A stretch of DNA of 36,620 nt, taken from IMG/VR virus record IMGVR_UViG_3300023096_000012, positions 1 through 36,620 of that record; one strand, written 5' to 3'. Positions 14,259 through 35,881 of the stretch are shown here, piece by piece. Numbering within the stretch: the stretch's first letter is position 1; each line of letters starts with the position of its first letter. The position numbers and the translations under genes were made by a program. This DNA comes from a virus. The notes beneath the pieces are model-generated. The model saw nothing but the letters and a program-made list of their open reading frames with translations, was not told the origin of the DNA and ran no database searches.

Positions 14259-17200
14259 TTAAGGTATTATAGTCCATCCTTTAGCTAAAAGTAATGTCTC
14301 TGTATTTGTTCCTGTAATACCTAGTGCAGGTATATTACTTGATGCTTCTAGTATTCCATTATTTCCAGCTAACGTTATCCAACTTGTTTCCGTGTCCCAA
14401 GATGTAACAGTAATTTTATTATTATTTAAATATAGTCGCTGAAGGTTGTTTGGTAAAGCTAAAGTTGGATTAAATATTACAATATCATTAGCATTTAAGA
14501 ATAGTTGCTGAAGGCTACTTGGTAAAGGAATTGTGGGATTAAATGTGACAATCTCATTAACTTGTAATCCTAAATCTAATAGCCCACTTGGTAAAGCTAA
14601 AGTTGGATTAAATATTACAATATCATTAGTAGCCAGATTTAAATTTTTTAAACTAGTTGGCAAAGGAATTGTAGGATTGAAAGTTACGATTTTATTAGCT
14701 TGTAAATTCAAAGTTTCAAGTCCATTTGGTAAAGGGGTTGTAGGATTAAATGTGACAATATCATTACTAACTAAATTTAAATTTTTTAAACTAGTTGGTA
14801 ACGGGATTGTAGGATTGAAATTCACTATATCATTATTTTGTAAACTTAAATTTAACAACCCATTTGATAAAGCTTCAATAGGGTCAAAAATTACAATAGA
14901 ATTAGTAACAAAATTTAAACCTGTAAGACTTGGTATTTTTACAATATTAACTGTAGTTACATTTTTACTGTCTATTATTAAACTTGTCATATTAGTATTA
15001 ACTCTAAATCTCACTCTTCCTCCAACTAATGAAAAATTAGTTATTGTTGCAAAAGTTGTTCCAGACTGCGTTAAGAAAAATGATTCCCAAGCACTCACTG
15101 TAGACAATGTCCCCCAATTTGTCGAAGCAACATCAAAATTTATGGCTGGAGGTTGAACTGTCACTGTAACAACTGTTGTAATTGAAATACATCCATCAAT
15201 TGTAGGTGTAATCGTATAAATAGCCGTACCTGAAGTAATTCCGTCATTAATTAATAAGTCAGTTATTGATGTTCCTGATCCGCTTGTTGCTCCTGTAACT
15301 CCACTTTGAACCACTGTCCATGTGAATAGGGCTCCTGGTTCTCCACTTAAAGTGATGTTTGTTGTTTGGCCACTATTTATATTTTGAGAAGGCGGTGTTG
15401 CAACTACTGTAGCTTCACAATCACAATCTGCGGGTACTGTTGTTGAAAGGGTGCACGTTTGTGTATCTTCATCATAAATATAACCATTTGGGCACAAAGT
15501 TCCTGATAATGTTGTTTTTTCACATAACTCTGTTGTTGGATTATATTCGTACCCTATCGGACAAGTTATCTCACTTTCTCCACAATCTGTGTAAAAACCA
15601 ATATTCTTGTCAAATTTTAGACATGGATCAACTTTAGGTATATAGTCTTTTTTAGTTATAAATACGCGTCTGAATCGACTATCGTAACCCATAGCTATAC
15701 CAACTCCATTTATTGCATTATCTGTATCTAAATCACTTATATTAGCTATTTGGGATTTTAGTATTTTAAATGGTAGATGTTCTTTAAACCAGTTTCTCAT
15801 TCCGCTTGGTTTACCGTTTATAAGACTCGATATCTCGTTCATTCCTTGACCACCACTTGGGATCTCAATAACTTGACCTCTTTTAGCATCTACATGATAA
15901 TGTCCAAATTCACAGCTTACTGATTCTGAACTTCCTGTTCCTCCAAATCCAAGATCTGTTTCTGAATAGGTCATTGGTCTTCTTGCAAAAGCTGAAGATA
16001 AATTTCTTGAATCCGCTCTTTTACCATCATCTACGGCCACATCAATAGCATTGAATAGAGAAGTTGCATTTTCTTGTCTAATTAGAATTTGCTCTCTTTC
16101 AATTGTGCGTATATCTTTTAGTTTTCCGTATTTACTATCAAACTCGTAAAAGTCTAATGGTTTATAATTTAAGTAAGGGTCATTATAATTGTTTTCACTG
16201 TTATCTGGTTGCGACCACATTATACCATTAGGCTTATCATTTCTACAATCACTTTCTAACTGATCAAAATTATCTGACAATGTTCTATATGCTGTAGTGG
16301 TTACAGGTTTAGAATATATTTGATTATAAAAGAAAAATTCTCCTTTTTTAATTGATACATTTTTTTCTTGTGTCCATTCAGATGTATCTCCTGTATTTGG
16401 GTAAAAGTTCCTTTCTAATGTTGGTTCGGCGGTTCTATTCCAGGTATTTATTCTAGTTTCAGTTAAGAAATTAGGTACTCCATAATAATATAGATAAAAT
16501 TTACTTGGTGGTCTATAGTAATTAGTTTGTTTAGTTTCACAATCAAATTTTAAATCATAATCTATGTCTGGGAATAAAGCAGACTGTCTTCTGTAGTCTG
16601 TCATTACTTCATAATCTACATAAAATCTAGGTTCTCTCCCTATATTAGAATAAAATTTATAATTAAATGGTGTTAAACTTGCTAAACCAAATGCTGTATC
16701 TGTAAACAACGGCATTTTTCTTTTAAGTGTATGTCTGGAAATAAAAGTGTCTCCTCCAAAAATAGACAAACAGGTTGTTTTAGGATTTTTTAAATCTCCT
16801 CTGTATCCTGTTGACAACCATTTTATAGAATTAACTGTACCGTATTGTGAAGGTAAGTAGTTTTTTAAAGCTACGTATGGATTGGCCACATTTTTCTTTA
16901 TTACTTTACTTATCCCTGTAGTACAAGCATTATTTTGACTTGCTATAGTTAAAGACGAGGTATTTGTATCTATCTTATTATTATCAAAAGATACATATTC
17001 TGTGGGGTAATTTAATGTATTAGAAACTCCTAAAGTTAATAAAACAGATTTTTCTCTGTCTAAGTTATTTATACTTATTTTTTCTCCTGTGACATCATCT
17101 ACTTGTGAAAAATTACCTTCTTTTAAATACTTTGCGGAATATAGAGACCTGATTTGATTTCCATTTTCTTGTAGTAATTGCATGTAATTATACTTAGCAC

Positions 17201-20200
17201 TAGAATGAAAATATGAAGAGAAGTTTTCAGGTTGCCCTAAATCTCTAAATGCTTTTATCCAATCTAATCTGTGTCGGCCATAATTTACAACTACAGAACT
17301 AATTGCCGATAAGGCTCCTGCTATAATAGAAAGTACAATACCTGCTGGATTCACAGACACTACAAATCCTGCTGCAACTCTATAATTCTCTCCTGCATTT
17401 GCCAATTGTACTGCAACTTCTGTAGCTACTTCTAGTCCTGCTAATAATCCTGCCAGATCTTTTGCTTTTCTTGTTAAGATTACAAATTTCGGATGATCTT
17501 TTACTTCATTAAAATAACTGTTATCTGTTTGGCCGAATACATATCCCTGAACAGATAATTCTGTTGGTAATGTGTATCTATAATAATCTGTTTCTGGGCT
17601 ATGGTACGTGAATTTATCATTTTTCAATCCATTGTAAGGATGTGGGATAAATGTTGTTCTGCTTCTATCTGAATAATTTAAAATATCACTACCTAGATCA
17701 TTGTAAGGGTAATTAGAATAATAAATAGACTGTGTTTTGTCATTATCATCTATGTACTTTCTCATATCAAATATAAGCCCTGAAGACATTATACTTCTAT
17801 CTTGCGCTATATCTCCTCTGAATATTTCATATCCTGATATTTGATTTCTTTTTTCTTCGCTTAATAATCCGTTATTTACCGCAATATCTAAAAATGAATT
17901 AATTGTAGTTTCATCTATTGTTATCCCTAATGGATATATCACTGAATCACTTTGAGTCAATTGAGGATTTTCATACATAAAAGGACTAACCTTATTATCA
18001 GGAAATTTAAAATGTCTTATATTTCTACAAGTAAAATTTACTAAAGGTTTTTCAACACTGTCTTTCTTCCACTGGTAATTGCCTTCTGAATCTAAAATAG
18101 GTATAAACACCTCTGAAATAGTTGTACCCTCTACAAATTCTAATTCAAATTTTTCTCTTTGAAATATGTTTATATCCGAAGGTTTTATTTTTAAGGTGCT
18201 AGAATCATATAAAGAAGTATTATCGGGATAAATCTCTTGACTTTCCCAATAAGCAAAATCTCCTTTTTTATATGGAGTGGCCATACATGAATTTGCAACA
18301 GGTTTATTGAATGTACAAGTTGCCGTGTAAGTTTGTTTTTTATCTATTCTTATAGATTCATACGTTACATCTATTCTGGAATATTCTCTGCTTCTAATAA
18401 CTACAGCAAAACATCCGCTTAAAGGTGCTGTTCTATACACTAAGTCTTCTGCACAGTTTTCTTGACTTACTATTTTAGCATCAATAGCGACATAAAAGTT
18501 TTGACCTGAAATTTGACCTATATTTGTAGAAGTTCCTGCTTCATTAGTAATAGTCCAGTCTAAAGAGTTATCTGCTTTTTGAAAAAACAACATCTCTCCT
18601 TGTCCTGCATCTACTATTTTAGAATACAAAGGTGTTGTTGAATTACATTTATTATAAATAGAAACTCTTATGTCAGTTCCCACTGAAATATTATCTGTCT
18701 GTTGTAATTCTTTTATTTTAGATACTTCTAATACGAATCTATCTCTACTTAATATATCTCCCTTAAACCATAAAACTCCTTTGTGTAATTTATTTGTCCA
18801 TTCTGCTCCTGAAGCAACTGTATCTTTTGTTGTTTGCAATTCTGCTACAGTTACTGCCCCATAATAATCATGAAAATATCCTTGATTAAAACTACTTGTA
18901 GGCGTAATTTCTGCAATTGCATCAGCATATGTGCATTCTAAATTTTCAAATTGAAGAGTTCTGTAAAAAGCAGTTCTTGGTTGAGGGGGGAATCCTCCTC
19001 TACATTGCATAAAAGCAGTTTCAAAATCTGTATTTCTTTTTGGATTCCCTGTACTTGTATCTAATTCATAGATTGTACAAGTTTGTGGAGGTTTTGTTTT
19101 AATATACTCTGTTGGGAAAACAGCATCCACCATAGTAGCAGATTCTCCGACAATGGCTCCTACAATTAATTCTTCATCATCTAATATGGGCGCTTCACAA
19201 TTATTATAATTTGGTGTGCAATTTAAATTAGTATAACAGTCTATATCAAAATAATTACAAAAAGGGTAAGAATTTGGATCAGAAGGAGATGGACAATTTG
19301 CATATGTTAGGCAATCGCCATTAGTAATAGTATCAGTTATAAAAGTTGTTAAATCTACGTAATTCTGAGTTGTTTCTATACTGAACGTTGCGCCTGGAGT
19401 AGTAATAACATTTTGATAAACACAGTTTTTTTGAATGTCTTCCTGTACTTCAACTATTTCCAAAGAGTCAGAAGAACAAAAATCTTCATCTTCAGTTGCT
19501 GTATTATAATATTGCCAATATTTAGTTCTGTCTGTTGAATTACAAGCACTTTTATTTGACTCTATAGAAACTCTATCTTTGTTGGTGATAGGTACTTCTA
19601 TTAAGTCACTTTCTTTTGCATTACGGTTAATTAAAGGAAATAAAGATGTTTTATACCCGCCTTCTAATAAAAATCTTATAGAATAAGGGACTACTTCATC
19701 TCTATTAATAGATAAATATAATGAATCTTTTACTCCATCTTTATATAAGTCTTCTTTAGCTATATGTGTTTGCCACTTTAAAAAGGAACCTAATAAATTA
19801 ACTACAGGTTGTAGATTTATTTCTTTTTCAGTTGTTATTCCCGCGCCTATTAATGAATTATTACTCTCAGTTAAAAATTCCCAACGTTGAATATATAAAT
19901 TCTCTCTAATTAAATCAGATAATTCAATTGTTTGTTTATTTTGTTCCCCTCCATAAATAACTGTAGTGTCGTTTATATTGTGGATTCCTTCTACGAAAAA
20001 TCGTGTCACTCCAACATCCTCTAAAGTTGTTTGAATAACTGCAATTTTATAATGTGTAAATCTTTTATCTAAATTCCCTACTTGAAGTTTAATTGAAAAA
20101 TTGGTAGGTGTTCCTAATTCTGCTTGAGTTAAAGTAACATTATTTCTGTCAAATATTTGAATAGGGTTAGTTATAGAAGTATATTCTGATATTTCATTAC

Positions 20201-20960
20201 CTAATTGATCTGTATAAGCAATTAAGAATTCGTATGTTCCTAATTTAAGTCTTCCTCCTAATTCAATTGAAACTGGAGTTAGTTCTGGTAAGTTATACCT
20301 TTTAAAAATAAGAAGTTTATCTGCGTCTAAACATGTAGGAATTATTTCATCTACTCCGCAATTAATATCTCCTGTTTGTTTATATTGTTGTAAATTATCT
20401 AATACTATATATCTAGGAGGTGTATTATCATCAGTGAAGTATATTGTTTTACCACACTTCTCATTTTTTATAACTGTTTTTTTTATCGGCGAATTAATAG
20501 AAAATTGAAATCCTTTTTCTGGTTCTCCAGCTAATATATGACACTCATCATTAAGTAATGTTTCATATATATTTAATTCTGTCTGCGTAATATTTTCTAA
20601 TGGTTCCGCTAAATCAAAGTATTTTACACATCCTTCGCAATCATTCTGTAAGTCATCAATATTTTGAATTTGCTGCACATTTTTTATCTGTCCAAATTCT
20701 CCCACACCTGTTGTAGGGTTTACTAGAAAGAAATAGGTTGAATTGGAATAAATATCATTTGTACCATTAATTACTTTAAATCCTGCTTTAAATCTAGAGG
20801 AAAGTAAATTAGACATTTCATTGGTTAAAGTGAAGCTTCCTCCATCTATTCCATCAAAAATTCCATTTAAAAGAGTTGAGTAATCAGCTTCTCCTAAATT
20901 ATATTGATCTCTATTTAATCCTCTTTGAGGTTGATTGAATTTTATATCTGGTTTAGCCAA
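14259..20960 (-). CDS. Giant tail nozzle/muzzle-like protein with PKD-like and LRR C-terminus
   Basis: The product is 2233 aa. The start is TTG at 20960; an in-frame TAA lies four codons upstream and no ATG is suitably placed. The N-terminus (KFNQPQRGLNRDQYNLGEAD, then LLNGIFDGIDGGSFTLTNE) has the pattern of tail nozzle proteins of crAss-like podoviruses, which continue the tail tube below the ring proteins. A hydrophobic, Ala/Gly-rich segment lies at about residues 1165-1225. Residues about 1795-1840 carry two Cys-rich units (CPIGYEYN..., CPNGYIYD...). Residues about 1845-1932 form a PKD-like Ig fold (TNITLSGEPGALFTWTVV). Residues about 2008-2185 hold seven to eight leucine-rich repeats of 23 aa. 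The C-terminal domains look like an added adhesion module that may contact the cell surface. It follows the two ring-like genes with a 22-nt gap. Nozzle identity rests on pattern and context. Confidence 0.85.
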   Translation of the reverse strand: MAKPDIKFNQPQRGLNRDQYNLGEADYSTLLNGIFDGIDGGSFTLTNEMSNLLSSRFKAGFKVINGTNDIYSNSTYFFLVNPTTGVGEFGQIKNVQQIQNIDDLQNDCEGCVKYFDLAEPLENITQTELNIYETLLNDECHILAGEPEKGFQFSINSPIKKTVIKNEKCGKTIYFTDDNTPPRYIVLDNLQQYKQTGDINCGVDEIIPTCLDADKLLIFKRYNLPELTPVSIELGGRLKLGTYEFLIAYTDQLGNEISEYTSITNPIQIFDRNNVTLTQAELGTPTNFSIKLQVGNLDKRFTHYKIAVIQTTLEDVGVTRFFVEGIHNINDTTVIYGGEQNKQTIELSDLIRENLYIQRWEFLTESNNSLIGAGITTEKEINLQPVVNLLGSFLKWQTHIAKEDLYKDGVKDSLYLSINRDEVVPYSIRFLLEGGYKTSLFPLINRNAKESDLIEVPITNKDRVSIESNKSACNSTDRTKYWQYYNTATEDEDFCSSDSLEIVEVQEDIQKNCVYQNVITTPGATFSIETTQNYVDLTTFITDTITNGDCLTYANCPSPSDPNSYPFCNYFDIDCYTNLNCTPNYNNCEAPILDDEELIVGAIVGESATMVDAVFPTEYIKTKPPQTCTIYELDTSTGNPKRNTDFETAFMQCRGGFPPQPRTAFYRTLQFENLECTYADAIAEITPTSSFNQGYFHDYYGAVTVAELQTTKDTVASGAEWTNKLHKGVLWFKGDILSRDRFVLEVSKIKELQQTDNISVGTDIRVSIYNKCNSTTPLYSKIVDAGQGEMLFFQKADNSLDWTITNEAGTSTNIGQISGQNFYVAIDAKIVSQENCAEDLVYRTAPLSGCFAVVIRSREYSRIDVTYESIRIDKKQTYTATCTFNKPVANSCMATPYKKGDFAYWESQEIYPDNTSLYDSSTLKIKPSDINIFQREKFELEFVEGTTISEVFIPILDSEGNYQWKKDSVEKPLVNFTCRNIRHFKFPDNKVSPFMYENPQLTQSDSVIYPLGITIDETTINSFLDIAVNNGLLSEEKRNQISGYEIFRGDIAQDRSIMSSGLIFDMRKYIDDNDKTQSIYYSNYPYNDLGSDILNYSDRSRTTFIPHPYNGLKNDKFTYHSPETDYYRYTLPTELSVQGYVFGQTDNSYFNEVKDHPKFVILTRKAKDLAGLLAGLEVATEVAVQLANAGENYRVAAGFVVSVNPAGIVLSIIAGALSAISSVVVNYGRHRLDWIKAFRDLGQPENFSSYFHSSAKYNYMQLLQENGNQIRSLYSAKYLKEGNFSQVDDVTGEKISINNLDREKSVLLTLGVSNTLNYPTEYVSFDNNKIDTNTSSLTIASQNNACTTGISKVIKKNVANPYVALKNYLPSQYGTVNSIKWLSTGYRGDLKNPKTTCLSIFGGDTFISRHTLKRKMPLFTDTAFGLASLTPFNYKFYSNIGREPRFYVDYEVMTDYRRQSALFPDIDYDLKFDCETKQTNYYRPPSKFYLYYYGVPNFLTETRINTWNRTAEPTLERNFYPNTGDTSEWTQEKNVSIKKGEFFFYNQIYSKPVTTTAYRTLSDNFDQLESDCRNDKPNGIMWSQPDNSENNYNDPYLNYKPLDFYEFDSKYGKLKDIRTIEREQILIRQENATSLFNAIDVAVDDGKRADSRNLSSAFARRPMTYSETDLGFGGTGSSESVSCEFGHYHVDAKRGQVIEIPSGGQGMNEISSLINGKPSGMRNWFKEHLPFKILKSQIANISDLDTDNAINGVGIAMGYDSRFRRVFITKKDYIPKVDPCLKFDKNIGFYTDCGESEITCPIGYEYNPTTELCEKTTLSGTLCPNGYIYDEDTQTCTLSTTVPADCDCEATVVATPPSQNINSGQTTNITLSGEPGALFTWTVVQSGVTGATSGSGTSITDLLINDGITSGTAIYTITPTIDGCISITTVVTVTVQPPAINFDVASTNWGTLSTVSAWESFFLTQSGTTFATITNFSLVGGRVRFRVNTNMTSLIIDSKNVTTVNIVKIPSLTGLNFVTNSIVIFDPIEALSNGLLNLSLQNNDIVNFNPTIPLPTSLKNLNLVSNDIVTFNPTTPLPNGLETLNLQANKIVTFNPTIPLPTSLKNLNLATNDIVIFNPTLALPSGLLDLGLQVNEIVTFNPTIPLPSSLQQLFLNANDIVIFNPTLALPNNLQRLYLNNNKITVTSWDTETSWITLAGNNGILEASSNIPALGITGTNTETLLLAKGWTIIP
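14390..14935 (-). repeat. Leucine-rich repeats, 69-bp units, within the nozzle-like gene
   Basis: Six regular 69-bp units (about 14451-14864) plus one degenerate unit at each side encode 23-aa leucine-rich repeats of the form LxxLxLxxNDIVxFNPTxPLP. Alternate units are more alike (TSLKNLNL versus NGLxxLxL starts), so a two-unit, 138-bp block seems to have been copied. The units are near-identical enough for recombination to change the copy number. They are coding and in frame throughout, so this is a protein repeat and not a CRISPR array. Confidence 0.9.
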
Positions 20961-26074: not shown

Positions 26075-26085
26075 AAATTTTATTG

Positions 26086-28000: not shown

Positions 28001-28048
28001 CTATTTCTTTTTTATTGACAAGTAATCGGCTAAAGTGCCTGACTTCAT
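28001..28048 (-). CDS. Micro-ORF (15 aa) with an in-frame A-AAA-AAG slippery site
   Basis: An ATG at 28048, in the 79-nt gap after the spike gene, opens MKSGTLADYLSIKKK and stops at TAG (28001). The heptamer A AAA AAG (28007-28013 on the plus strand as CTTTTTT) sits in the correct phase for a -1 slip. After slipping the product would end KKEIDLIRV at a TAA one base before the ATG at 27982. Either a coupling leader peptide or a chance reading frame is possible; its coding status is uncertain. Confidence 0.3.
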   Translation of the reverse strand: MKSGTLADYLSIKKK

Positions 28049-28061
28049 ATTTATATATTTA

Positions 28062-30926
28062 TTAAAATGGATAGGATTTACCTATACCTAAGTTATATAA
28101 TTCTTGTATTTCTGAATTAATTATTTGTCTATTCCAAACACCAAGTTCATCAATTTTACCTGAAAAAAAGTATAAGGGGATAATTCCAGCTTCTGCACCT
28201 AATCTAAATCTATTCCCTGTATTATTTCCTATTAAAGTATTAGACATGGTTTGAGTTTTAACTAAAATTCCATTAATATAGGCTAATAAAATTCCTGAAT
28301 TAAAAGTAACAGTAAACATATACCAAACATTCATATTTAATACTTGATCTATAGTTATATCTGTATGTGTACTACCATTACCTATAGAAAGTATTAATTT
28401 ATTACCTACTACGCTTCCATTGGTATATAAAGAAATTCCATATTTATTATCAACCCTTTCTTCATTAGATAATATCATTTGTATTCCTGAAAAAGAATTT
28501 ATATTTACCCAAGTATTTATACTTATTTTTTCTCCTGTAACTGGAACTATTCCTGTTAAATAATTAGACCCCGTAAATTCTGCACTATTATTTATTTTAC
28601 CAGTACTATATAAAACAGATCCAGTATTAGTTAGTGTGTAGTTATTACCTGTAGAATCAATAGAATTACCAGAGTTTTCATCTTCTTTCCAATATCCAAA
28701 TAAGTCTAATAATAAATTACTAGGTGGAACATTTGGTAAATCATCTAAGAATCCATCTCCTCTCGTTTTTGTAAAAGTACCTTCTATTCTATTGAATCCG
28801 TAATAGTTAGATAAAACTATATCATCTATTGTTGTTGTTGTTTTAAAAGTAGGTGTTATATCATTTGAAGCTACATGATGTACTCCTATTGCTCTAATAT
28901 ACTTTAATGATGCACTGTTATTTAATAAGTTATCCGATCCTAAAATAGTAACTCCATTAATTAATAACTTATCAACTTTAGCTAAATTTAAAATCTCAAC
29001 TAATGGAGAATCATTAGGTATTGTATTTCTTTCAACATATGCTGAAATATTTAATATACCCACTGTTGCGCCATCTATAACAAAATGACTTATTGTACTT
29101 GTCGTGTAAGGATCATTTGAGTAATAATTTTCAATATTTAATGTTTTTAAAACAGTATTAACTCCTTTCACCATAAATGATGGATTATTATTAACCGAGA
29201 AATCATTTCTCATATAATTTCTTAAAGTTATTCTTTCAGCATTACAATTTAATGAGGCTTTTGCGAAATTACCTCCATAAGCCGTTCCGCTTAAATTAGT
29301 AACGTTTATATTTTCAATTAACACTTTCCCTACATTACCAGGTCCTGCATCTTCTAATCCTGCTGGATTTTGTAAATAATTATCAATTACTAACCAATAA
29401 GCTTGACAAATTCCTTCTACATTTCTAATTGAAACATTATCTATTAATTTATTTCCACTTAATAATCTAATTCCCATTTGTGAATTATCAAAATATAGGT
29501 TTTGAAAATCTACGTTTGTTGCTGAACCAGATTTGCCAAAATAGACTGTGTAATCTCCAGGGTCAACTCCATTTTTAAGCAATGAAGTATTCAGTGTAAT
29601 TGCGTCATCACCACATTTTGCTCTAAGTCCATTTACTTTAATATTATTTTGATATCCGTCAAAATCTAAACCATCTTGGTTAACGTATACTGTTTCTCCT
29701 TGATATATATTCATATTTTCGACTACTACATTTTCATTTGTATGAAATAAACATGCATAAGTTCTAGTATTAATTAAGTTAATATCTTTTAACTGTATAT
29801 TTTTAACACCATACATTCTAATCCCTGTAACAAATCCATAAGTTGAACTGGAGTGCATTTGTTTAGATAGCCCCTCTCTATATCCATTACCATTCCATAT
29901 ACCACCTGTTATAGATATATTAGTATCTGGAAAAACACCTGGTGATGATACAGGTAATGCATTATAATTAGATAGTATAGCTTTGTCTGAATTATCTCTA
30001 AGAATTGCCCCACACCCTTCTAACGCAATAATTGTAGTATAACTTTTTATATTTAATCCTGTAACAGAATATTTACCATCCCAATATACTAGTAAGGGAT
30101 TGTCAAATGATGCTTCATCTAAAATATATTGAATTATTGAAGTATTATCAGTTCCAAAAGTTGAACTATTTAGTGATATATCAGCATCTGATATACACCC
30201 TTTATCTGATAAAAAAATAATTCTATTTTCGCTTCCTGCCCCTTTGTTAGCTAAAAACCATTGTTTATTTACAGCATCCAAATCTTCAATAGGGTCTTGA
30301 ACAGGTAATGTCCCTCCTCCTGTTCCTATTGTACCTGCTTGATATATTGGTATATTATTTGGTCTTGCTACACTATCTGGACTATCTATTCCTAATTCTA
30401 AAAATGCAAATGTTGCACTTCCATCAGGTTGAAAAGCAGTTCCTGTATAAATTCCATTAGAAAATGTTGGTGGAGATGGTAAATCAGATAATTGTTTCCA
30501 TCCTATTGTTACAGCTTCTGCATTTCCACTTCCATCAAATCCTACAACTTGTCTATCTGTACCTGTTGGTAATATTCCGCCTCCCGTAATAACTGGATTT
30601 AATGGATCTGAATTATCTACTCCAACACCTGTAACTGACTGAACTCCTGGGGCTGACCCGCCCCCATTAAAATTTCCAGTATTCTGTCTATAGAATTCTT
30701 CAAAATCAATCTGACTATAAGGACTTCCGTCTTCTTCTAAAAGTTGTGTAATTAATAAAGGTGTATCACTATCCCAATCTTTAATATTAAAGAATCTATA
30801 ATGCGGTTTATTTAAGTTAGACTTATCTACCAGAACTTCTTTTACAAATCCATAGAAAGTTTCTTTAGTAGCGTCATTTGAAAGAACTATGTAATTGTCT
30901 TTTCTATAAAATTTATAATTGTCCAT
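28062..30926 (-). CDS. Tail spike: GH28-like beta-helix depolymerase with LamG-like C-terminus
   Basis: The product is 954 aa with an ATG at 30926. Residues 1-90 (NYKFYRKDNYIVLSNDATKE) form a virion-attachment domain of a type common at fibre N-termini in Bacteroidota phages. A Gly-rich linker with SVTGVGVDNSDPLNPVI follows. Residues about 235-690 are a right-handed beta-helix. Within it NQDGLDFDGYQNNIKVNG and CGDDAITLN correspond to the NTD and DD catalytic boxes of GH28 polygalacturonase-like enzymes, with Gln replacing Thr in the first. Residues about 737-950 (ISINTWVNINSFSGIQMILS, then GKIDELGVWNR) are a LamG/concanavalin-like jelly roll. The protein probably binds and cleaves surface polysaccharide. 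Substrate cannot be told from sequence. Confidence 0.88.
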   Translation of the reverse strand: MDNYKFYRKDNYIVLSNDATKETFYGFVKEVLVDKSNLNKPHYRFFNIKDWDSDTPLLITQLLEEDGSPYSQIDFEEFYRQNTGNFNGGGSAPGVQSVTGVGVDNSDPLNPVITGGGILPTGTDRQVVGFDGSGNAEAVTIGWKQLSDLPSPPTFSNGIYTGTAFQPDGSATFAFLELGIDSPDSVARPNNIPIYQAGTIGTGGGTLPVQDPIEDLDAVNKQWFLANKGAGSENRIIFLSDKGCISDADISLNSSTFGTDNTSIIQYILDEASFDNPLLVYWDGKYSVTGLNIKSYTTIIALEGCGAILRDNSDKAILSNYNALPVSSPGVFPDTNISITGGIWNGNGYREGLSKQMHSSSTYGFVTGIRMYGVKNIQLKDINLINTRTYACLFHTNENVVVENMNIYQGETVYVNQDGLDFDGYQNNIKVNGLRAKCGDDAITLNTSLLKNGVDPGDYTVYFGKSGSATNVDFQNLYFDNSQMGIRLLSGNKLIDNVSIRNVEGICQAYWLVIDNYLQNPAGLEDAGPGNVGKVLIENINVTNLSGTAYGGNFAKASLNCNAERITLRNYMRNDFSVNNNPSFMVKGVNTVLKTLNIENYYSNDPYTTSTISHFVIDGATVGILNISAYVERNTIPNDSPLVEILNLAKVDKLLINGVTILGSDNLLNNSASLKYIRAIGVHHVASNDITPTFKTTTTIDDIVLSNYYGFNRIEGTFTKTRGDGFLDDLPNVPPSNLLLDLFGYWKEDENSGNSIDSTGNNYTLTNTGSVLYSTGKINNSAEFTGSNYLTGIVPVTGEKISINTWVNINSFSGIQMILSNEERVDNKYGISLYTNGSVVGNKLILSIGNGSTHTDITIDQVLNMNVWYMFTVTFNSGILLAYINGILVKTQTMSNTLIGNNTGNRFRLGAEAGIIPLYFFSGKIDELGVWNRQIINSEIQELYNLGIGKSYPF

Positions 30927-32937: not shown

Positions 32938-34776
32938 TTATTTTGCAAATGCTTGTACCACAGGTAATCCAGCTGCACTAGCTAATTGCGCTAAAAGTGT
33001 TTCTACTGCGGTTTGACGGCCAACTTCAACAATAATATTAAGATTTGTTTTAATTGAAGAATGTGGTAACAATTTGTAATAGAACTGAGGTCGAATTGTA
33101 ATTGTATATTGAATATACTGAGCTAAACCTCTAAGTCTTGATTCTTGTCCCCATAACCATTTACCATAGTTATTACCTACAAATCTTTCAACACCATCTA
33201 AATTGTATCTGGCCTGATCTTCTCTGTTATATAAGTAACCTCCTAGTGCTTCTGGATCTGCGGCGATTGACAACACTTTAACTTTGAAAGGAAATTTACT
33301 TGATTCCCAGTTCTCTGCAATGTATGTTGCTTGACCGCCTGCTACAGAAATACGAGTAGAAGTTGCGTAAAATGGCATATCATCTCTATACTCTTCTGAT
33401 CCAGACATTGTGAAAGGTTTACCTCTGAAACGGATACCCATTTTTGCTGCTGCATCGTACTCATCAATAGCTGTTTCCCAAACATTTAAACCGTAGTTTT
33501 TAGGTGCTTCTGCTGTAAATAAAGCTCTGAACTCGTCTGAACACTCTTCACAAACAATATTTGTTGGGACGTTAGTTCTGTAAGTTGTTTGACATAAAGA
33601 AGAAATTTGTGCTCCTGATCCCACTGCTGCTGCAACTGTACCTGCCAATGTGCCTGTAGCTGTTGCGATAGAGAATCCTGGATATGTTGCTGATGGCGCT
33701 ACTAAAATAATTGTTGCTCCACTAGACGTTATCGTTCCACCTGTTGCTAATTCAATTGCGGCTTTATTAGCTGTAATAAAGTTAGTAGCTGTAGTAGCTA
33801 AATCTGTAGCAAATGTAGCTGTATAGGGAATGCCACCAATTGTAATTGTAGCTGTTCCTGAAGTACCTGTTAGTGTTACTGTTCTTGATAAATTAACTGT
33901 ATCTATTGCAATTGTTAAATCAGGATAAGCTTCTTGTAACTCTGCTAGAATATCTCCACCACACTCATCATCTGCAATTGTGATTGTATATGCTTTAGTA
34001 GTTGATTGACAAATATCTCCTAATACCCATGCAGTAGAAACTGTGGTTGCATTAGAACAAACTGCTTGAACTTCTCCTGCTAAATCAAATACCGCTGTTG
34101 AAGCTGGTGCAGAAATAGCTCTGAATGTTGTAATTTGTGCATCTGTTAACTCTGCTGTTACCACCACTGTGTATGTTCCTACACCCGCAACTGAACCACC
34201 AATTTTAACTGCTGTTCCTGTTACAAATCCTGGTAAATCATCAATTGTAGTTACTAAACTTGCTCCATCATCTTCTAAAGCAATAGAGTAAACAAATCCT
34301 GCTGCAATTTCTGTATATCCTGCTGGGCAAGTATCACATCCTTTAATTTTAGAAGCTAAACTTGTTGTATAAGCAGGAATTGATGTCCCCACTGGTGCTT
34401 GTAAAGTATAAACTGTTTGGTTTCCTGAAACTTCGTCTGTTCTTACAACTTTGTAAAGTGGGTATTGTGCTTGTACTCTGGCCAAGGCTGTTGAATCTCC
34501 ATTATCAAATAAAGTTAAATTGTAATACTGATAATCAACTGTATCTTCTAATGCTCCGTTTAAACTATTAACAACTAATGCGTCAACATAGTCTGTTACA
34601 GGTACACCACCCAATAATTTTGTAGCGTTAAATTCAGCCACAGCTTTTTCAACTAGTTCTTGCATTGTAACCACACCATTAGCGCAATCAATACATACTC
34701 CGTCATCGTCAAGATAAGGATATTGTAGGTCTAATCTAATAGTTGTTTCTCCTTCTTTATAACCTAAATTATACAT
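32938..34776 (-). CDS. Major virion structural protein, C-terminal part of a split gene
   Basis: The frame from the ATG at 34776 encodes 612 aa (MYNLGYKEGETTIRL). The same frame is open and protein-like for about 45 more codons upstream (IRVEVPNRTGIEVDDF, GYNGKPGTEIIVGER), but no start codon is there. It becomes continuous with the 96-aa frame at 34905 if one 8-bp repeat copy is removed. The chain is beta-rich with several Ig-like stretches rich in Thr, Ala and Ile (residues about 160-400), Cys pairs (CIDC, CDTCPAGY, CEECSDE), and a conserved-looking C-terminus (IRFRGKPFTMSGSEEYRDDM and NIIVEVGRQTAVETLLAQLA). Its size and terminator suggest an abundant capsid, decoration or tail protein. I could not identify it as an HK97-fold major capsid protein. 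Confidence 0.8.
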   Translation of the reverse strand: MYNLGYKEGETTIRLDLQYPYLDDDGVCIDCANGVVTMQELVEKAVAEFNATKLLGGVPVTDYVDALVVNSLNGALEDTVDYQYYNLTLFDNGDSTALARVQAQYPLYKVVRTDEVSGNQTVYTLQAPVGTSIPAYTTSLASKIKGCDTCPAGYTEIAAGFVYSIALEDDGASLVTTIDDLPGFVTGTAVKIGGSVAGVGTYTVVVTAELTDAQITTFRAISAPASTAVFDLAGEVQAVCSNATTVSTAWVLGDICQSTTKAYTITIADDECGGDILAELQEAYPDLTIAIDTVNLSRTVTLTGTSGTATITIGGIPYTATFATDLATTATNFITANKAAIELATGGTITSSGATIILVAPSATYPGFSIATATGTLAGTVAAAVGSGAQISSLCQTTYRTNVPTNIVCEECSDEFRALFTAEAPKNYGLNVWETAIDEYDAAAKMGIRFRGKPFTMSGSEEYRDDMPFYATSTRISVAGGQATYIAENWESSKFPFKVKVLSIAADPEALGGYLYNREDQARYNLDGVERFVGNNYGKWLWGQESRLRGLAQYIQYTITIRPQFYYKLLPHSSIKTNLNIIVEVGRQTAVETLLAQLASAAGLPVVQAFAK

Positions 34777-34904
34777 TGGATCTCCGCAAAGAGTAATGTC
34801 AATTCCTGTAGAAGTTCTTTCTCCTACTATAATTTCTGTTCCTGGCTTACCATTGTATCCGATAATAAAATCATCTACTTCGATACCTGTTCTATTTGGA
34901 ACCT

Positions 34905-35195
34905 CTACTCTAATATCCTAATATCTGCAATTCTGAAAGTCTGGCTCTCATATGCTTTATTTGTAGTGTATTGAGACACTGGTTTGTCGAACGCTCCTAC
35001 AAGCAAATCGAATGATTTATCTTTTGATTGTCCTGTGAAAGTTGAGTAAACTTTTCTTCCGTTTTGTGTAAGCTCTTTATTATCGTTACTAACAATGGCT
35101 AGTACGCCGTTAGTTACATTTAAAGAACCACCTGTTGTTAGAGTCTTACCATCTATGATGAAAAAGTCTCTCTCTAATGCTCCCGCTGTTGCCAT
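34905..35195 (-). CDS. N-terminal part of the split major structural protein
   Basis: The ATG at 35195 starts a 96-aa frame (MATAGALERDFFIIDGKTLT) that ends at TAG just past a tandem duplication. Up to ADIR (residue 93) the sequence is beta-rich and protein-like; the last three residues (ILE) come from the duplicated bases. Deleting 8 bp joins ADIR to VEVPNRTGIEVDD and continues without a stop to 32938, giving 749 aa. As the sequence stands, this is a truncated product. It could still fold as a small independent domain, but the natural reading is that it is the N-terminus of the larger protein. Confidence 0.75.
   Translation of the reverse strand: MATAGALERDFFIIDGKTLTTGGSLNVTNGVLAIVSNDNKELTQNGRKVYSTFTGQSKDKSFDLLVGAFDKPVSQYTTNKAYESQTFRIADIRILE
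34910..34925. repeat. Perfect 8-bp tandem duplication that shifts the frame
   Basis: CTAATATC occurs twice in a row on the plus strand (34910-34917 and 34918-34925), that is GATATTAG twice in the coding direction. Eight bases change the phase by one and bring a TAG into frame at 34905-34907. No slippery heptamer in the needed phase is present, so ordinary programmed frameshifting does not explain it. Confidence 0.95.
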
Positions 35196-35215: not shown

Positions 35216-35881
35216 TTAATTTTTTGTTATTGCGTTTTGTTTTTCTGCTTGATATTTTGGATCGTCTGTATTCAACAAGAATTCTGCTGCTAATAAATCT
35301 ATTACTCTGTTCATAAATTTATCGTCGAATTCTGGATTATTTGAATTAAACTCACTCTCTGGATTTTCTGGGTCTTTAAGACCAACTTGGATTGGATAAC
35401 GATAGTAGGAAAGATTTGCTCTATCGATGGTAAAGTCATCTGAAGTGTAGATAATAATTTTATCAGATGCTAAATGAAAAGGTGTTTCTCTGTGCTTGAA
35501 AGATGGATTATTATTAGAATCTCTTAGTATTCCATTAGTATCATCATCTTTAATTTCGAAGCAATCTACTTTTTTTCTTTCACAGGTATCTTTAGTGGCC
35601 GTGCAAAATAAGTTAGAGAAATCAAAATAGTCTTTAGGTAGACTAAATTCTGTGAAGTCTTTTAGTTTTTTTGAAGATGGTATAGATAAATCATGAACTA
35701 ATATTTTCTGAATATACCTTATATCATCTTCAAATTTCCTGTCTAGAAACACTTCTATAAGCCTGTTAGTTACATTATTAGCTAAAACGCAAAACCTTCC
35801 TTTATCTAAACTGATTTTATCGGTGGTGGCGTTCTCATTAAGCTTTATAATTGTACTCTGGTAGAACTGTTCTGTTGTCAT
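35216..35881 (-). CDS. Head or connector structural protein, unknown family
   Basis: The product is 221 aa with an ATG at 35881. The N-terminal half is helical (RFCVLANNVTNRLIEVFLDR). The middle contains three cysteines (FCTATKDTCERKKVDCFEIK) and strands. The C-terminal part (NLSYYRYPIQVGLKDPENPE, then FMNRVIDLLAAEFLLNTDD) is a pattern I associate with small structural genes near capsid genes in Bacteroidota phages. It lies directly upstream of the major structural gene, with a 20-nt gap. A head-completion or stabilising role is likely; the exact function is unknown. Confidence 0.78.
   Translation of the reverse strand: MTTEQFYQSTIIKLNENATTDKISLDKGRFCVLANNVTNRLIEVFLDRKFEDDIRYIQKILVHDLSIPSSKKLKDFTEFSLPKDYFDFSNLFCTATKDTCERKKVDCFEIKDDDTNGILRDSNNNPSFKHRETPFHLASDKIIIYTSDDFTIDRANLSYYRYPIQVGLKDPENPESEFNSNNPEFDDKFMNRVIDLLAAEFLLNTDDPKYQAEKQNAITKN

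Follow-up and report, generated by a model that had tools for sequence, protein, structure and literature searches.

The window, by which we mean the whole 36,620-nucleotide stretch of DNA analyzed here, is a 36.6-kb fragment of a crAss-like phage and is related to Cellulophaga phage phi17:2, a member of the Epsilon group of crAss-like phages (PMC7886860). A virion structural gene on its minus strand is divided between two open reading frames (ORFs) with the following features.

35216..35881, minus strand: intact upstream gene, a virion structural protein of PHROG 29507 by profile match
35195-34905, minus strand: ORF of 96 aa, the N-terminal fragment, ending at the TAG at 34905-34907
34925-34910, minus strand: perfect 8-bp tandem GATATTAG GATATTAG, evaluated by alignment of five relatives and against chance expectation
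34918..34920, minus strand: site of the 1-nt deletion, where the GAG codon of residue 93 is cut to AG relative to all relatives
34905..34907, minus strand: premature TAG stop, in frame solely through the deletion
32938..34917, minus strand: rest of the gene, corresponding to residues 94-752 of intact homologues, in a shifted frame
34776-32938, minus strand: ORF of 612 aa from the ATG at 34776, in a different frame from the 96-aa ORF
34774..34776, minus strand: internal ATG, proposed as an independent start, which is ATT (Ile) in relatives L004 and L005

The minus strand reads ATT GCA GAT ATT AGG ATA TTA GAG TAG at the junction, with GATATTAGGATATTAG read directly from the sequence at 34925-34910, so the tandem and the TAG terminating the 96-aa ORF, both pointed out in an earlier sequence-only reading, are present as described. 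Residues 1-92 of the 96-aa ORF match intact 752-aa homologues, and its last four residues (RILE) are out of frame. The 47 codons between the two ORFs contain no ATG, GTG, or TTG yet continue the protein, as that reading had proposed, and the 32938..34917 stretch shares 97-98% identity with three of the full-length relatives. Both ORFs match PHROG 32037, a structural-protein family of phi17:2-type Epsilon crAss-like phages, and they are thus one gene split by a frame error, bearing out the earlier view of two halves of one protein in different frames. The 96-aa part matches the profile at E 7e-8 over family positions 4-89, and the 612-aa part at E 8.5e-96 with its best stretch at positions 424-647; the intact homologue in L003 scores E 2.6e-118.

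Five viral contigs carry close relatives of the split gene (91-98% protein identity), and their intact protein is 752 aa long. Aligned at the junction, all five have GAT ATT GAG GAT ATT AGA GTA, coding for D-I-E-D-I-R-V, with synonymous variants in L002 and L005, and all encode A-D-I-E-D-I-R-V-E-V across it. The same alignment gives GATATT-AGGATATTAG for the window, one base fewer than in 5/5 close relatives, and because the relatives carry GATATTGAGGATATTAG, which is longer by that one base, the window is read as having a 1-nt deletion. The ancestral sequence, as judged from these alignments, is an in-frame 9-nt near-repeat, GATATTGAG GATATTAGA, composed of codons for DIE DIR. Loss of one base from its GAG codon would leave two identical 8-nt units, and a deletion inside the near-repeat would in this way mimic an 8-bp duplication. 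We are confident that the lesion, at residue 93 of a virion structural gene of 752 codons, is a private single-nucleotide deletion and not a duplication. An 8-bp tandem on its own is unremarkable, with three in the window compared to a mean of 1.3 expected under a first-order dinucleotide random model.

To determine how isolated the break is, the window was compared with the matching regions of four relatives of 139-143 kb and their ORFs of at least 80 aa. Between 21 and 25 ORFs per relative match the window, and the split gene alone matches in two frames, with a single 752-aa ORF in each of the four matching as residues 1-92 plus 94-752. No internal stop occurs in any matched ORF of at least 80 aa from the four relatives across the 36.6-kb window, and this gene is the sole frame break among the matched genes. 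A profile search recovers 21 homologous loci, including the five close relatives and some that are near-identical to each other, and in 21/21, with identities as low as about 30%, a single ORF spans the junction; the alignment with homologous phages that the sequence-only reading had suggested thus returns a two-gene layout with the same junction in none of them. A 16-mer of the junction is present in 0/4 relatives, and the mutant 30-mer is absent from the viral contigs scanned, a set from which the window's own record was possibly left out; a DNA search of a phage collection gave no match. These comparisons mark the break as isolated, either a mutation or an error in the sequence, rather than a switch.

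The finding is most likely an ordinary private one-base deletion, arising either from faulty assembly or sequencing or from a recent mutation that inactivates the gene, and weighing the two is a matter of judgment and not of measurement. We favor, with some reserve, a consensus or assembly error of a strain mixture, because databases contain close strains and which relative is nearest to the window varies from one part of it to another. A real and recent inactivating mutation in the sequenced genome is a serious but less probable alternative, and anything functional behind the deletion is, by the same judgment, very improbable. If real, the deletion would truncate the protein after 96 aa and the genome would be defective. 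A strict filter finds two more private small indels in the window, at 26079 and 26796, both outside ORFs, compared to none in three of the four relatives and three in the most divergent; these lean weakly toward sequence error. The filter missed the site at 34919, probably through a flank that is too divergent in G003, although the site is seen directly otherwise. A contig of low quality throughout was considered and rejected: one genic frame break in 36.6 kb plus two private intergenic indels indicates that the sequence is not grossly bad.

The codons beyond the stop remain, by their substitution pattern, under purifying selection, as does the rest of the gene. Pairwise dN/dS with the individual relatives is 0.04-0.13 for the whole gene, and for the 46 codons that follow the stop it is 0-0.11. 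These codons have 6 synonymous and 0 nonsynonymous differences from L002, and 18 and 3, respectively, from L005; the whole gene has 11 to 28 nonsynonymous and 67 to 93 synonymous differences from L002, L003, and L006. True, older decay to a pseudogene in a surviving lineage would account for the broken reading frame, but there is no second lesion and the differences in the gene are mostly synonymous, so any real mutation must be very recent, and older decay is very unlikely. Assembly error and a decaying gene were both rightly among the options listed in the sequence-only reading; the slipped-strand duplication and the switch listed beside them do not hold up, as set out below.

Ribosomes could instead recover the full protein by a programmed -1 frameshift at the junction or by bypassing it, and we assign this similarly little probability. 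A -1 shift would bring the frame back, and take-off and landing sites are conceivable in the identical GAT/ATT codons, which are spaced 8 nt apart. Recoding is not unthinkable in this order of phages, given that frameshifted RNA polymerase subunit genes, their expression unexplained, are reported from Zeta-group crAss-like phages (PMC7886860), but the present locus gives no hint of it. A TAG directly before the junction closes the target frame, confining a -1 shift to about four codons, and no slippery heptamer (X XXY YYZ) lies between that TAG and the TAG at 34905, in agreement with the earlier statement that no slippery site fits programmed frameshifting. The only slippery heptamer in frame, TTTAAAT at 35124, is far upstream with the target frame closed after it, and the relatives are in one frame, with none that needs or shows recoding. 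A real deletion fixed in a replicating population, with hopping between GAT or ATT codons or noncanonical -1 slippage, is no more probable, but if it were true, both the 96-aa form and the full capsid protein would be made. Readthrough of the TAG was also rejected, as frame 0 past it soon hits more stops and its translation is unlike the homologues.

Two separate genes, with the second starting at the ATG at 34776, are highly improbable: the 612-aa ORF does open with an ATG, but this start is not conserved, being ATT in L004 and L005, purifying selection acts in the same frame on the 46 codons ahead of it, and every homologue is one ORF.

Equally improbable is the slipped-strand 8-bp duplication of the sequence-only reading, possibly a reversible phase-variation switch for a short N-terminal form. 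As in slipped-strand phase variation at short tandem repeats, there are tandem units in a coding region and a frame shift, and the perfect 8-bp tandem exists and shifts the frame. Here, however, one nucleotide has changed and not a repeat unit, and the unit number is constant among close relatives: 5/5 have a pair of in-frame near-copies at a spacing of 9 nt, and none has a single copy. Removal of one copy does yield 749 aa, so the earlier arithmetic is right, but the intact protein is 752 aa, the resulting junction is found in none of the five relatives, and the product would lack three residues that all five have. There is no sign of reversible switching, with the same near-repeat in all close relatives, no length variation among close genomes, two units only, and a tandem that falls within the chance number. 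A one-base deletion in an in-frame near-repeat can thus leave a perfect short tandem where the frame breaks, and relatives should be consulted before slippage or switching is inferred. In annotation, the two ORFs of the window are best merged into a single capsid gene that carries a frame error.

The closest annotated homologues of the gene product are designated structural proteins, in Cellulophaga phages phi17:2 and phi4:1 (about 39% identity) and in csAssE-Sib (about 30% identity). The phi17:2 protein (ALO80466.1 / R9ZWX4, 650 aa) is homologous over both fragments at about 39% identity, has the same PHROG 29507 upstream neighbor, and matches in fold (TM 0.68/0.78), but it is coded by one intact ORF and lacks about 100 residues, including an inserted domain at residues about 434-526 here. 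Pfam has no match for the split gene, and searches of PDB sequences with a profile and with a single sequence identify no relative, gp36 included.

For the fold, the intact homologue L035, which is also the L003 protein, was modeled from a 20-sequence alignment, with a mean pLDDT of 79.8 and a pTM of 0.58. The best structural match of the model is 7qof_a, a phicrAss001 capsid entry (VIA-align; Z 15.2, 4.8 A), aligned over 310/333 residues and model range 5-749 at 7% sequence identity; Foldseek alone ranks 7qof_a second (E 1.9e-3). FliD/FliC entries are in the same match list, and FliD/flagellin-like matches recur in the middle part. Judging by its chain length, 7QOF chain a would be gp36, and phicrAss001 gp36 (residues 1-333) is described as having a FliD-like domain in the middle and a PH-like domain to which both termini contribute (PMC10172136). 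The model has this gp36-like two-domain fold at its pTM of 0.58, in which the two ends of the protein would come together as a PH-like domain, with further domains lying between them. In crassviruses, the capsid auxiliary protein is located on the capsid surface, with nine copies per asymmetric unit. The protein here is not the major capsid protein; it is probably, on the basis of the model, a gp36-like capsid auxiliary protein decorating the head. The "major structural gene" of the sequence-only reading is therefore loosely right, in that this is a virion structural protein. Although the predicted fold aligns with 310 of the 333 aa of phicrAss001 gp36 (PDB 7QOF chain a), there is no detectable sequence similarity between the two, and the protein here is more than twice the length of gp36, with extra domains, its virion location being a prediction. 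Recognizing that the phi17:2 lineage likely has a capsid auxiliary protein of the gp36 type would aid in annotating those phages. The break falls in a predicted beta-strand of the model (residues 92-98), and the 96-aa product would thus hold little beyond the N-terminal part of the terminal domain.

In L003 (4581-6839), the domain at residues about 434-526 resembles one (Z up to 11) that occurs in tail sheath proteins and in tail proteins of the T7 type, and local matches to these make up many of the entries after 7qof_a; the phi17:2 and csAssE-Sib homologues both lack about 100 residues at this tail-sheath-like domain.

The genes around the split gene can be compared in part with those of annotated phages. 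In csAssE-Sib, the gene in the same place as the PHROG 29507 gene is annotated as a ring/adaptor protein; the homologue of the split gene comes after it, with the major capsid protein further upstream, and phi17:2 is organized alike. Of the order major capsid protein, hypothetical protein, ring/adaptor protein, and this gene, the window covers the PHROG 29507 gene directly upstream, as in phi17:2; a major capsid protein gene would fall beyond the window end, at the place matching its annotation in csAssE-Sib.

Several other features of the window are of note. A second 8-bp tandem, ATAAATAT ATAAATAT on the coding strand, is intergenic at 28047-28062 and exists only through one base missing relative to the nearest relative, G001 (ATAAATAATATAAATAT); it has the same signature as the split gene, in that a near-repeat unit of 9 nt has been shortened and now equals its neighbor. 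At 28062-30926 is a gene for a 954-aa protein that has about 98-99% nucleotide identity in G001 and is not aligned at this place in G002, G003, or G004, and it probably reflects a recent exchange of a large gene. Inside a 1,609-aa ORF, the segment at 1306-1904 aligns to G002 and not to the other three relatives, and is possibly a swapped module. A 2,233-aa ORF at 14259-20960 has a PKD-like domain and weak leucine-rich-repeat matches, and its 14400-14900 part is internally repetitive, with repeats that can be aligned with one another in several registers.
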